Source of the DNA: Dehalococcoidia bacterium
Lineage (GTDB): Bacteria; Chloroflexota; Dehalococcoidia; JACPQF01
Length of the DNA stretch: 5,189 bases
Reading direction: 5' to 3'
NCBI GenBank assembly: GCA_030650265.1
Contig: JAUSEJ010000096.1
Coordinates: 1 to 5,189 of the forward strand
Shown: positions 1-4,692 of the stretch, in pieces
Layout: every line of letters begins with the position of its first letter
Position numbering within the stretch: position 1 is the stretch's first letter
The notes under the pieces: model-generated
Databases searched by the model: none
What the model was told of the DNA's origin: nothing
The model's input: only the letters and a program-made list of their open reading frames with translations
Translations under genes and position numbers: made by a program

Positions 1-1097
1 TCGGTTGTCCGTACGCCGTTGGCGAACGAGAGGATCTGAGTCTTGTAGCTGCGGCTGTCCGGTTGCAAGGCCACTTCCAGCGATACATCCTCCCGTGTCC
101 TGGCAATCGAGATGGGCAACTTGATGAGCGGGGCGCCGCCCGGCATCAGCCTCTGAACGTAGTCCACTAGACCCTTCTCGGAATGAAAAGCCCGATTGAC
201 GTTCTTGCCTTCTTCCTCATCCCAGTAAGTAAAATCTATCTTCAACCCGCGATTAAGACAGGCCGTCGCCTCGAAGCGGAACGTCAGAGCCTCGATGTCG
301 TAGACCACGTCCTCATCGAATATCGTCTGGTCATATAGCCAGGCGATCTGGGTGCCATGCAGCAGGCCCTTGTATGGTACGATCACCGGCTTGCTGAAAG
401 AGCCACCATGCCTGAATTCCTGATGATAGTGCTTGTTGTCCCGCCAGATATCAACCACCAACTCGCTAGAGAGGGCGTTGATGACGGTAAGGCCAACGCC
501 GTGAAGGCCGCCGGCCTGCTTATAGGCGCCGGCTTCGAATTTGCCACCGGTGAAAGGTTTTAGGAATATCCAGGCCGCCGCCGGCAGCACGACGCCGCCA
601 GACTCTTTCGGGTCGATGGGAATACCCCGCGCCTCGTCTCGCACAGTCACCCGACCGTTCTGCTCGATGGTCAGATGCAACGTAGACCCAAAACCGGCGG
701 CGAACTCGTCCACGACGTTGTCGACTGCCTCGTAGATGAGATGCAGGAGGCCGGAAGTGGAGGTGGAGCCGATATACATGCCAGGGCGCTGGCGGATATG
801 CTGGACACCCTCGAGGATTTGAATGTCGGCGCCGGTATAGGCCGCCGCAGTGCCCGTCTCATTCTTCTTGCCCCCGTGCTGACCGGCTGCCCTTCGTTTC
901 GCCACTGCTGGCTTAGTTACTGGCGCGGCCACCACAACGGCAGCCGGAGCGGCCTTCTTGACAACGGTTTTGCTGCTCTCCGTCTTGGCATCAAAGAGAG
1001 ACATCTGCGCCGCGGCATTGGCCGGGGCATGTCCACTGACCTTGGCCGGCGTTTTTGACGCCTTCTTTGTCGATATATCGTCTGCTTTCTTGGTCAA
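1..1097 (-). CDS. gyrB: Type IIA DNA topoisomerase subunit B (GyrB/ParE family), N-terminal part, divergent
   Basis: This is the ATPase subunit of DNA gyrase or topoisomerase IV. It binds and hydrolyses ATP to drive strand passage together with a GyrA/ParC subunit. The frame is open from a TTG at 1097 to the left edge, giving 365 residues; the rest lies outside. Residues 1-86 are a Lys/Ala/Pro-rich, probably disordered tail containing QMSLF (31-35). The GHKL ATPase domain follows: RQRPGMYIG (102-110), YEAVDN with the catalytic Glu123 and Mg-binding Asn127, DEARGIP (154-160), GGKF (184-187) and YKQAGGLHGVG (192-202). The start of the transducer domain follows, ending at SFANGVRTT. Relative to E. 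coli GyrB the numbering is shifted by +81. The G1 box has Ala156 where DxGxG expects Gly, and the stretch before GGKF is unlike the usual AAEVIMTVLHAGGKF. The TTG was chosen because GAGGAG sits 8 bases upstream. An ATG at codon 32 has no ribosome site and would cut the clamp-like motif. Family membership is certain; gyrase versus topo IV versus a paralogue cannot be decided here. Confidence 0.93.
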   Translation of the reverse strand, partial: MTKKADDISTKKASKTPAKVSGHAPANAAAQMSLFDAKTESSKTVVKKAAPAAVVVAAPVTKPAVAKRRAAGQHGGKKNETGTAAAYTGADIQILEGVQHIRQRPGMYIGSTSTSGLLHLIYEAVDNVVDEFAAGFGSTLHLTIEQNGRVTVRDEARGIPIDPKESGGVVLPAAAWIFLKPFTGGKFEAGAYKQAGGLHGVGLTVINALSSELVVDIWRDNKHYHQEFRHGGSFSKPVIVPYKGLLHGTQIAWLYDQTIFDEDVVYDIEALTFRFEATACLNRGLKIDFTYWDEEEGKNVNRAFHSEKGLVDYVQRLMPGGAPLIKLPISIARTREDVSLEVALQPDSRSYKTQILSFANGVRTT

Positions 1098-1105
1098 CTA
1101 CGTCG

Positions 1106-1111
1106 CTCCTC
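1106..1111 (-). promoter_or_regulatory. Ribosome binding site (GAGGAG) for the gyrB-like gene
   Basis: GAGGAG on the minus strand lies 8 bases upstream of TTG at 1097. It is the strongest Shine-Dalgarno match near any candidate start of this gene. It decides the TTG start and hence the presence of the 86-residue N-terminal tail. The later in-frame ATG (codon 32, near 1004) has no comparable site. Confidence 0.7.
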
Positions 1112-1611: not shown

Positions 1612-2742
1612 TCAGCCCCCCGTACCTACTCCCACGCTGGCGGTTCTTGCCATGCGCTTAATGCCAGAGCGGCGGCGGGCCATGAGGTCGACGGAGGCCT
1701 CGAGGCGGGTGATCATCCCTGCTTTGCCCATTTGCTCGTCGAGAATGAGGGTGAGGACGGGGATGTCGAAATCCTTGACCACCTTGGGAAAGATGTTTTG
1801 GGCGATTATCTCAGGCATGCAGGTGAAAGGCATCACATGGATGATGCCGTCGAAGCCGTCCTGCTTGTGAAGGACGGTCTCGCCAAGGGAGGATATGGCA
1901 TCGCCGGAGACGTCGCGACTGAGATAGGGAAGAGCAGCTTTCTTGACCTTTTTGGCATGACTCATGCCTATCGCTTCGAGAAAGAGCCAGACCTTGCACC
2001 ACTCGGTCAAGTAGGCCGAGCGGTGAACCTCCACGCCTCTGTGCCCCAACTCCTCCTCAAGGTCCATGTTGCAGAACGGGTCGATGGCCATGAAAAACTC
2101 GCCCAAAAAGCCGACCTGAAGGGGATTCGCATTGGGCTTCAGGGGGATGGCGTCCAGTTCCCCGAACAGCTCTCCGTTGGTCTTCTTTAGCTCTTGGGGT
2201 GTGTGGGCGGCGCAGACGCGGTCCCCGGCGTCCCGCCAAATCTTGCTGACCGATCCCTTGACCTTCTCCCTGGGTCGCAAGTAGTGGACACGACGCTCCA
2301 GCGAGTCCATGAGAAGCAGCTGTTGGAGGCCAAATTTCACGTCGCCCAGGACCTCCATCCAGGTCTTCTCCGGCCCCAAGACACTTCTAATGAACTTGGC
2401 CAGGCCAACGATGCCGCCTTCCTGCCAGTTAAAAATAACCATCTGGAAGTCGTAGCCAAGGTCTCGCAGCACGGCCTCGTGGAGTTTGGCGTAGTAGCCC
2501 AAACGGCATAGGCCGGGGCCGCCGATATCCAGCACCGTGTCGGCGCCGAGTTCCAACCCTTCCAACATGTTTCCCAAGAGCATCTTGTAGGGGAGGCAAA
2601 TCCACTCGGGCGAATGCTTGACGCCGAGGGATAAGGTTCGTTTACTGGACTTGGGCGGGACAATGCAAGTGATCCCGTTCTTATCGAACAGGGATTTCAG
2701 GGGTACCCAGGCCGATCCGGCATGGGGAAATGTAACGATCAT
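1612..2742 (-). CDS. DUF2229/COG3581-type protein of the 2-hydroxyacyl-CoA dehydratase/activase superfamily
   Basis: A 376-residue protein recognised as the stand-alone DUF2229/COG3581 type, related to 2-hydroxyacyl-CoA dehydratase components and usually annotated as CoA protein activase. The reaction is unknown. Family-typical blocks: TFPHAGSAWVPLK (4-16), HSPEWICLPYK (43-53), LELGADTV (63-70), GPGLCRLGYY (75-84), GFLGEFFMAIDPFCN (211-225), HVMPFTCMPE (302-311) and IPVLTLILDEQMGKAGMITR (327-346), followed by a short basic tail. Cys49, Cys79 and Cys308 lie in these blocks and could bind an iron-sulfur cluster (inference). There is no signal peptide or membrane segment, so it is cytoplasmic. 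ATG at 2742 was chosen because AGAGGG lies 7 bases upstream and it leaves a 16-base gap after murE. An earlier ATG (2808) would add 22 unfamiliar residues inside the murE 3' end. Relatives are often paired with a second activase-like gene; none is visible here. Confidence 0.85.
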   Translation of the reverse strand: MIVTFPHAGSAWVPLKSLFDKNGITCIVPPKSSKRTLSLGVKHSPEWICLPYKMLLGNMLEGLELGADTVLDIGGPGLCRLGYYAKLHEAVLRDLGYDFQMVIFNWQEGGIVGLAKFIRSVLGPEKTWMEVLGDVKFGLQQLLLMDSLERRVHYLRPREKVKGSVSKIWRDAGDRVCAAHTPQELKKTNGELFGELDAIPLKPNANPLQVGFLGEFFMAIDPFCNMDLEEELGHRGVEVHRSAYLTEWCKVWLFLEAIGMSHAKKVKKAALPYLSRDVSGDAISSLGETVLHKQDGFDGIIHVMPFTCMPEIIAQNIFPKVVKDFDIPVLTLILDEQMGKAGMITRLEASVDLMARRRSGIKRMARTASVGVGTGG

Positions 2743-2749
2743 TGGCAAA

Positions 2750-2755
2750 CCCTCT
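2750..2755 (-). promoter_or_regulatory. Ribosome binding site (AGAGGG) for the COG3581 gene
   Basis: AGAGGG sits in the 16-base murE intergenic gap, 7 bases before ATG at 2742. It supports that start over the in-frame ATG at 2808. It also indicates that the gene is translated independently from a shared murE message. Confidence 0.7.
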
Positions 2756-2758
2756 AAA

Positions 2759-4279
2759 CTACGCCAGACTGGCGTCCTTCCGCCGAAGGATTTCGCGCAC
2801 AACCTCACGGTCGTCGCAGGCCACTCTTAAATGGCCATAATCGATGTACTTCTCGTGGCCCCGGCCGGCAATGAGAACGGCGTCACCTGGCCTCGCTCTC
2901 GCCAGCACCAGCCGGATGGCCTCGAACCGGTCGATAAGCTTCTCATAATTCGTTCCGACTACGGCGCCCGCCTGCTTTGCCCCGGCCTCGACCTGGTCGA
3001 GGATGCGCCCGGGCTCTTCGTGATGCGGGGTATCGGTCGTGATGACAAAGAACTCAGACAACCTGGCGGCCAGCTCACCCATGGCGGGACGCTTGAGCTC
3101 GTCTCGCTCGCCGGGGCAACCGAACACTAACAGAACCCTGCCCGCGGTCTGAGAACGCAAGAAGGTCAGAGATTTCTCCATGGCCGCAGGCGTGTGGGCA
3201 AAATCCACGAAGACCGCGAAAGGCTGGCCGTGATCCACCCTTTCCCATCGTCCGGAGACACCGGAGAAATCGGCAAGACACCGTTGAATCACGTCCAAAG
3301 TAACGCCCAACGTGGAACAGAGCGCGATCGCCGCCAGCGCGTTGTAGACATTGTATCTGGCCAGCAGCCTGGTCGTCAACTCCACCTGGCCCGCGGGCGC
3401 CGTCAGCCGGAACGATGTCCCAGTGCCGGATAGTCTGATATCGTCGGCGCGGAAATCGGCCTCTCTGTCGATGCCGTAGGAGACAACGCGGCCCTTTGCT
3501 ACCTGACGCAGGAAATCGAAGGATCTATCGTCGGCGTTAAGCACGGCAGTCTTGGGAATGCCCTTGTCGATGGACTCGCCGAGAAGGGTGAACAGTCGGG
3601 ACTTGGCTTGCAGGTACTGGTCGACGTCCCGGTGGAAGTCCAGATGCTCGGCGGTCAGATTGGTGAATACGGCCGCATCATATTCGCAGGCCGCCACCCG
3701 ATCGAGAACGAGAGCGTGAGATGTGCTTTCGATAATAGCGAAATCCATTCCTTCTGCTACCATCTCCGCCAGTAACTCCTGTATCGCCGGCGCCTCCGGG
3801 GTGCTCTGGCCGGTCTCGTTTGACCAGAGGCGTTGGCCGATCTTGAAATCGACCGTGCCGATAACGCCGGTAGAGTGACCGGCGGCCTCGAGAATGGCGC
3901 TAACCAGAAAGCTGGTGGTGGTCTTGCCATCCGTGCCAGTTATGCCTACCACCTTGAGCTTGCGGGCTGGGAAGCCTTGCAGGGCGGCGCTAAGGAAGGC
4001 CAAAGCCCGCCGGGCATTTGGCACTATTACGACAGGCACGCCTAAATCGTGAGCCTCTGGCATTCCATCGACTGATCGTTCGGCGACGACCGCCGCCGCC
4101 CCTCGCCTGATGGCCTCGGGGATGAAGGCACGGCCATCGACGCGCAATCCGGGAATGGCGACGAACAGGGAGTTACCGGCGACCTGCCGGGAATCCTGAA
4201 AAATGCCGCCGATATCGGGGTCGCCCTCGCCAAGTATCTGTTTGAGGGGTAAGGCAGATAGTAGCTCAGAGAGCTTCAC
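2759..4279 (-). CDS. murE: UDP-N-acetylmuramoyl-tripeptide synthetase (MurE family Mur ligase)
   Basis: MurE is a cytoplasmic Mur ligase that adds the third amino acid to UDP-MurNAc-L-Ala-D-Glu using ATP. The 506-residue length is normal. N-terminal UDP-binding domain: DSRQVAGNSLFVAIPG (29-44). Central ATPase: P-loop GITGTDGKTTT (112-122), STPEAP (159-164), ESTSHAL (184-190), FTNLTAEHLDFH (205-216), the AKSRLF lysine Lys226 that is carbamylated in the family, and NADD (248-251). C-terminal domain: GVSGRWE (340-346), DFAHTPAAME (359-368), KRPAMGE (396-402), DTPHHEEP (416-423), GRGHE (472-476) and DDRE (489-492). DTPH stands where DAP enzymes have DNPR and Lys enzymes DNPA, so the added residue is uncertain. 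GTG at 4279 was chosen because VKLSELLSALP is the usual MurE N-terminus. Starting from an ATG at 4366 would translate the 3' end of the RNase P RNA. Its ribosome site is weak (GAAAG). It probably shares a transcript with rnpB upstream and the COG3581 gene 16 bases downstream. Confidence 0.95.
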   Translation of the reverse strand: MKLSELLSALPLKQILGEGDPDIGGIFQDSRQVAGNSLFVAIPGLRVDGRAFIPEAIRRGAAAVVAERSVDGMPEAHDLGVPVVIVPNARRALAFLSAALQGFPARKLKVVGITGTDGKTTTSFLVSAILEAAGHSTGVIGTVDFKIGQRLWSNETGQSTPEAPAIQELLAEMVAEGMDFAIIESTSHALVLDRVAACEYDAAVFTNLTAEHLDFHRDVDQYLQAKSRLFTLLGESIDKGIPKTAVLNADDRSFDFLRQVAKGRVVSYGIDREADFRADDIRLSGTGTSFRLTAPAGQVELTTRLLARYNVYNALAAIALCSTLGVTLDVIQRCLADFSGVSGRWERVDHGQPFAVFVDFAHTPAAMEKSLTFLRSQTAGRVLLVFGCPGERDELKRPAMGELAARLSEFFVITTDTPHHEEPGRILDQVEAGAKQAGAVVGTNYEKLIDRFEAIRLVLARARPGDAVLIAGRGHEKYIDYGHLRVACDDREVVREILRRKDASLA

Positions 4280-4302: not shown

Positions 4303-4692
4303 ATAGACCCAACTGGGTCTGTAAGCCGAGTTCTGTATCCGGGAGTTTACCCCGAATGGTGATCATCTATCTAGGATGTCAGTTACCTGACACCTCAAGC
4401 GACCAACCCGAGGACAGGACGGGCACGCCTTATAGTCCTCCTATTAGGTCTTGCTCCAAATGGGGTTTGCCTAGCCGACCGGTCACCCGGCCGCTGGTGA
4501 GCTCTTACCCCACCGTTTCACCCTTACCGACCGCAACTCAGCGGCTTGCGCCCCTGGGTCCGTCTAGGCGGTATGTTTCTGTGGCACTTTCCGTAGGGTC
4601 ACCCCTCCTGGGAGTTACCCAGCACTCTGCCCGTTGGAGCTCGGACTTTCCTCGAACCTTGCAGCTCGCGATCACCTGACTCAGTTGGATCT
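4303..4692 (-). ncRNA. rnpB: RNase P RNA, bacterial type A
   Basis: This is the catalytic RNA that removes 5' leaders from pre-tRNA, working with the RnpA protein. Conserved blocks in order on the minus strand: GAGGAAAGTCCG, TGCTGGGTAACTCCCAG, CACAGAAACATACCGCC, AGGGTGAAACGGTG followed by GGTAAGAGC, GGAGCAAGACC, GCTTGAGG, AGATAGATGATCACC and ACAGAACTCGGCTTA. P2 is a perfect GGTGATC/GATCACC helix (4676-4670 with 4364-4358). P1 pairs GAUCCAACUGAGUC (from 4691) with GACCCAACUGGGUC (from 4319), with an internal loop and one mismatch. A P19 hairpin (4339-4354) is present. The length of about 390 nt is normal. Ends are set by P1 and by the promoter at 4698-4727, and are accurate to a few bases. Identification is certain. 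Confidence 0.97.
4305..4320 (-). other. Self-complementary 3' strand of rnpB P1, possible processing or attenuation hairpin
   Basis: AGACCCA-AC-TGGGTCT has two perfect 7-base arms around 2 bases and is followed on the minus strand by ATTCTT. It is also the 3' strand of RNase P helix P1, so the two pairings exclude each other. It could be a weak terminator or processing signal between rnpB and murE. The very small loop and the short T-tract make this uncertain. Confidence 0.35.

Follow-up and report, generated by a model that had tools for sequence, protein, structure and literature searches.

Several bacterial proteins, Pol III alpha, PolC and RecB among them, are described as clamp-binding-motif proteins that carry a QxxLF pentapeptide in a flexible segment. 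The motifs can be weak, as in the DnaE of B. subtilis, whose QMGLF binds at about 78 uM according to the portion of PMC12309361 consulted. In the part consulted of the table of PMC9690074, the bacterial clamp partners include no topoisomerase, and a eukaryotic type II topoisomerase, topoisomerase II alpha, is listed as a partner of the sliding clamp PCNA. The placement of type II topoisomerases at bacterial replication forks is partly open: in the accessible part of PMC11253446 the recruitment of E. coli gyrase is stated as open, and SeqA is thought to order topoisomerase IV. The literature searched, which was covered by titles and abstract openings, gave no clamp motif on a bacterial type II topoisomerase. 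A conserved clamp-binding motif on such an enzyme would be a different, direct route of recruitment.

The gene considered here encodes the ATPase subunit of a type IIA topoisomerase and differs from the known motif proteins in its carrier. It lies at the edge of the window, by which is meant the whole stretch of 5,189 nucleotides analysed (contig JAUSEJ010000096.1 of a Dehalococcoidia bacterium). What is new is that a motif of a known kind stands on a class of enzyme where it was not expected, and that much of a protein family keeps it.

The topoisomerase gene of the window

The features of the gene are as follows.

3-1097, minus strand: first 365 residues of a ParE/GyrB-like subunit B of a type IIA topoisomerase, the gene running off the window edge
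1106-1111, minus strand: GAGGAG resembling a Shine-Dalgarno sequence, 8 nt ahead of the TTG start, read from the sequence itself
840-1097, minus strand: N-terminal extension, residues 1-86, Lys/Ala-rich, predicted to be disordered
993-1007, minus strand: QMSLF, residues 31-35, clamp-binding-like motif (codons CAG ATG TCT CTC TTT)
1002-1004, minus strand: ATG codon 32, a rival start whose use would remove the Gln of the motif
432-755, minus strand: GHKL ATPase domain (Pfam HATPase_c), residues 115-222, E 2.4e-11
3-173, minus strand: beginning of the transducer domain (Pfam DNA_gyraseB), residues 309-365, truncated at the edge of the window, 21.1 bits against a cut-off of 27

The gene is cut before the TOPRIM domain, so that the ATPase domain and the start of the transducer are present, the latter below the Pfam cut-off. 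The protein matches NCBIfam PRK05644 (E 5.9e-76), and in the PDB the B subunit of a topoisomerase IV (4url, E 2e-54) matches its sequence best. As a half-length fragment it scores well below both the parE equivalog TIGR01058 (211 against a cut-off of 899.95 bits) and the NCBIfam gyrB model (247.6 against 882.4 bits).

The initial annotation had placed a QMSLF at residues 31-35 within a Lys/Ala-rich, probably disordered tail of about 80 residues. The motif is where it was said to be (window positions 1007 to 993, in the frame from 1097 to 3), and the extension is real, if slightly longer than stated, since the GyrB-type body begins at about residue 82-87 and the tail thus comprises about 86 residues. 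Its composition was also described correctly: the first 90 residues hold 23 Ala, 14 Lys and 5 Pro, with a net charge of +11, and their single Leu and single Phe both fall within QMSLF. Disorder is predicted by an AlphaFold2 model in which block means of pLDDT are 36-43 over residues 1-90; secondary structure is absent before residue 89, so that the motif would sit in a flexible segment. In the same model pLDDT is around 90 or higher over most of the ATPase domain and falls at residues 181-200. The motif is not readily produced by such a composition, as Q..[LM]F arises in 0.05% and Q.[SD]LF in 0.002% of shuffles of the window tail. QMSLF fits QxxLF, and its Met at position 2 lies outside the revised aliphatic set given in the sections consulted of PMC12309361 and PMC13254535.

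A probable second, topoisomerase IV-like enzyme of the Chloroflexota

The relatives of the window protein are mostly labelled in their sources as GyrB or topoisomerase IV subunit B of Chloroflexota, a few metagenome bins bearing the label of another phylum. Nearly all relatives, among the matches listed, carry PF02518, PF00204, PF01751 and PF00986. They form a family distinct from ordinary GyrB. In all 12 genomes compared, an ordinary GyrB that scores lower (577-677 against 1010-1283 bits) stands alongside the family member, which in one genome (G010) is split in two frames. A sample of 301 Chloroflexota genomes, with at most three candidates scored per genome, gave a family-level match of at least 760 bits in 35, the next match being at 680.5 bits; in one of these 35 (G162) a second GyrB was not found among the at most three candidates scored. 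Over the body, family members are 49-70% identical to the window protein (the nearest relatives 66-70%) and other GyrB at most 44%. A tree separates the family from other GyrB, with one intermediate sequence (L188) that takes no settled position; the window protein does not group with canonical GyrB and has its 86-residue tail against their short N-terminus.

The A subunits point the same way. By a GyrA domain search, each of the 15 family genomes examined has two GyrA genes and each of three others has one. A GyrA-like frame was present in all 40 family loci fetched, and in the 38 where both frames were recognised it always lay downstream of the B frame on the same strand. In 29 of these loci the two frames overlap or are no more than 110 nt apart, and in the others the distance reaches 1713 nt at most; at L253 a 424-codon frame lies between the two. 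The strict GyrA-box was absent from all 35 full-length family partners and present at 10 of 15 canonical GyrA loci; the loose pattern was found in 4 of 35 and 12 of 15, respectively. As a proof of topoisomerase IV identity the box is weakened, since 3 of the 15 canonical GyrA miss even the loose pattern and four partners match it.

Because an ordinary GyrB is also present and a second GyrA/ParC-like gene follows on the same strand, we read the family as a Chloroflexota-centred paralogue and the window protein as the putative ParE-like half of a topoisomerase IV-like enzyme. For the window gene itself the pairing is taken from its relatives, the contig ending inside the gene. The initial annotation had called the protein a GyrB-like topoisomerase; GyrB-like it is, but by its relatives it would be a ParE-like paralogue with its own ParC-like gene and not an ordinary GyrB. 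The enzyme resembles topoisomerase IV (ParE2ParC2) in having a B subunit with a GHKL ATPase and, in the relatives, a second A gene that follows it, mostly without a GyrA-box, beside a separate gyrase. It differs in belonging to a separate, Chloroflexota-centred clade, and in its long disordered tail with a clamp-like motif, of which the ordinary GyrB and ParE examined showed no example.

Among the ordinary genes, five canonical gyrB frames (G043, G052, G086, G110 and G118) are 1210 residues long and three gyrA frames (G029, G129 and G226) 949-1114 residues, the match in each being split by an intein-like insert.

Clamp-like motifs in the tails of the family

The tails of the family range from about 12 to 254 residues and cannot be aligned between lineages, yet many lineages keep one island. 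QxSLF occurs in four of them. Tails of the Ktedonobacteria type have QLSLF or close forms, those of the L081 type an invariant QQSLF (7 of 7), and those of the UBA2235 group QPSLF or QTSLF; the window protein has QMSLF. The sister group of the window protein has QLVMAW or QLVLAW within DPDPQQLVMAWD, which is the only long conserved island across the 311 alignment columns of 18 motif-bearing clade A tails. A further group has QQLEL, the sole long island among its 10 aligned tails. Motifs are present in both halves of the family tree. The groups used for these island alignments were picked by hand with mostly motif-bearing members, and that of clade A left out P0003, P0011, P0019, P0022, P0121 and the window protein; an unselected count is provided by the clustered tails.

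These tails were clustered at 95% body identity, with the longest tail representing each cluster, which gave 119; P0023, P0024, P0202, L105 and L128 (no anchor) and L179 (too short) were left out of the counts. A motif was defined as QxxLF, Q-phi-x-[LM]-[FL] or Q-phi-x-[LM]-x-[FL], following the parts of PMC12309361 and PMC13254535 consulted. The published motifs were found in 61 of the 119 tails (shuffle mean 1.11, maximum 6), and with Trp allowed at position 6 in 77 (shuffle mean 1.18, maximum 5); in both cases none of 2000 shuffles reached the observed number. QxxLF by itself accounts for 57 of 119. Taken alone, the hexapeptide that has F or L at position 6 shows no enrichment: it occurs in 2 of the 119 tails, a number reached by 124 of 2000 shuffles. 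Coarser clustering leaves 10 of 44 tails with a motif at 85% (19 with Trp at position 6) and 4 of 14 at 75% (5 with Trp), where the shuffle means are 0.08 and again none of 2000 shuffles reaches the observed count. As the clusters are related, the motif lineages amount to some five to seven tail types and not to dozens of independent events.

The initial annotation had proposed that close homologues be aligned for conservation of the tail and of QxSLF, and had named homologues lacking the motif at this place as a refutation. The outcome is mostly favourable. In much of the family, clamp-like motifs do form conserved islands within tails that differ widely elsewhere. The exact QxSLF is not kept in the nearest relatives, which have QLVMAW or QLVLAW and in one case (P0003) nothing recognisable. 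Homologues without a motif do exist: none was recognised in L090/L185/L186, L092/L187/L189, L091/L130/L158, L118/L119, L129, P0022 and P0003. Some Ktedonobacteria have degraded forms (QEFSFL, QLAF), and the window's sister P0011 has QLAMAGEW. QLVMAW relies on a Trp that lies outside the published consensus, and QQLEL is without the last hydrophobic residue. The earlier reading saw a real feature, undersold its breadth and named the enzyme too narrowly.

It has to be considered whether the tail is a basic, disordered extension that contacts DNA or is adapted to crowding, with the QMSLF of the window incidental. The charge of +11 and the Lys/Ala-rich composition would suit such a role, and L129 and L185 keep a short basic tail without a motif. 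We nevertheless regard this as unlikely: where a motif is present it is the motif that forms the conserved island and the basic stretches are not conserved, the only Leu and the only Phe of the window tail stand next to each other inside it, and it is enriched over shuffles that keep the composition.

The window tail has no close homologue, a search with the tail alone giving eight proteins, all family members with weak scores. A contig scan with the single window protein found no close relatives, and viral contigs and plasmids gave only distant GyrB among the matches listed. Relocation of the motif to the ParC-like partner in lineages without it was also considered and rejected, since the partners have no consistent terminal motif and the regular-expression matches fall inside the body. 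Two smaller features were seen in the tails. In the L081 lineage (L002/L081-type tails) a second conserved island, GALAL, follows QQSLF, and P0002 and P0005 have a second stretch of the LFD/LFS type late in the tail.

Comparison with ordinary GyrB and ParE

The statement that GyrB normally has no such tail agrees with the ordinary GyrB examined. Their N-termini are short, and the motif was found in 0 of 55 clusters from the same phylum (1357 N-terminal residues altogether) and 0 of 59 loci from many phyla, after 6 of 65 had been dropped for want of an anchor. Genomes of other groups, 17 in number, supplied 21 frames of GyrB and ParE, and none of these has it (L331 and L332 having been dropped from 23). 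As these control N-termini are short, with about zero matches expected by chance, they demonstrate the joint absence of tail and motif and not that the motif occurs at a lower rate. Among the other ORFs of the family loci, 318 in all, two have QxxLF within their first 95 residues; one of the two is the family member L128, so that 1 of 317 remains once it is set aside; the broader motif pattern occurs in 12 of 318. A ParE from a Paenibacillus genome (L328), thus from another phylum, starts with a short EQLEFAKG that recalls the QQLEL group and otherwise has no tail.

The clamp and DnaE of related genomes

The main DnaE has a QxxLF-like motif in 6 of 10 related genomes, at one internal place that we take to be the usual DnaE motif site. 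The dialect is that of the tails: GQITMFD (G089), GQTSLFD (G009 and G147), GQIDLFS (G011), GQTDLFA (G012) and GQTTLFD (G008). No motif was found at that place in the main DnaE of the other four (G002, G003, G006 and G226).

Twelve DnaN from ten related genomes were aligned to E. coli DnaN and scored with a list of residues, in E. coli numbering, that we assume to line the ligand pocket. R176, P242, M362 and P363 are conserved in every one of the 12, and L155, L177 and M364 in 11 of them; all 12 have other residues in place of T172, H175 and S346, and R246 and V360 are variable. The pocket thus appears, from the alignment, to be largely kept. In five genomes (G006, G089, G003, G009 and G226) two to four dnaN-like matches, some of them partial, occur beside the tailed topoisomerase, one match in each of G003 and G009 being below the cut-off.

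These data bear on the idea that the island is a short linear motif for a partner other than DnaN, such as the enzyme's own A subunit, an SMC complex, an adaptor or a protease. QLVMAW and QQLEL depart from the clamp consensus, clade A conserves the longer block DPDPQQLVMAWD, and E. coli topoisomerase IV interacts with MukBEF according to the part of PMC5061553 consulted, all of which would be in keeping with another partner. Against it, the QxSLF lineages have a canonical clamp pentapeptide that resembles the main DnaE motif in those six of ten genomes, and a different partner seems to us quite improbable.

The translation start

An in-frame TAG immediately precedes the TTG, which is therefore the earliest possible start of the frame. 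The initial annotation had credited this TTG with a strong ribosome site, and GAGGAG does lie 8 nt upstream of it. Translation from Met32 or later, which would give a protein without the motif, is very improbable: TTG is the less common kind of start and ATG codon 32 is in frame, but codon 32 has no Shine-Dalgarno sequence, and L083, L109 and L081, which have ATG starts with good ribosome sites, also hold the motif inside the tail.

A possible tether to the sliding clamp

The explanation we consider probable, on sequence grounds, is that the ATPase subunit of this second, topoisomerase IV-like enzyme is tethered through its disordered N-terminal tail, with QMSLF docking into the ligand pocket of DnaN, the sliding clamp. 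The enzyme would then be held near clamps at the fork, or on those left behind on the freshly synthesised lagging strand; sister duplexes intertwine there, and the enzyme could decatenate or relax them. An assembled enzyme should have two B subunits and hence two tails. The initial annotation had likewise suggested a tether to the replisome through DnaN, together with basic stretches that may touch DNA.

The wider claim, that the whole Chloroflexota topoisomerase IV-like family is clamp-tethered by its ParE-like tail and that DnaN itself places decatenation on newly replicated DNA, we regard as evenly balanced. On that reading the two tails of an enzyme might occupy the two pockets of a single clamp, or reach clamps on both sister duplexes. 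If true, bacteria would have their own counterpart of the topoisomerase II that binds PCNA, a likeness of function only, kinship aside; topoisomerase II alpha uses another clamp and another motif. The family provides natural variants of the tail, in which the motif is QxSLF, QLVMAW, QQLEL or lost.

Other genes of the window

Three further features were recognised in the window.

4306-4687, minus strand: class A RNase P RNA (RF00010, 298 bits), overlapping the 5' end of the listed murE ORF
4366-2759, minus strand: murE ORF as listed, with MurE homology from near residue 31
1612-2808, minus strand: protein of 398 residues that matches DUF2229 (CoA enzyme activase family) below threshold; the frame and the end of murE overlap

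Since MurE homology begins only near residue 31 and the listed frame overlaps the RNase P RNA, the true start of murE is probably downstream of the RNA gene. The MurE of the window is at most 50% identical to the best-scoring among the matches listed from the 301 sampled Chloroflexota genomes.
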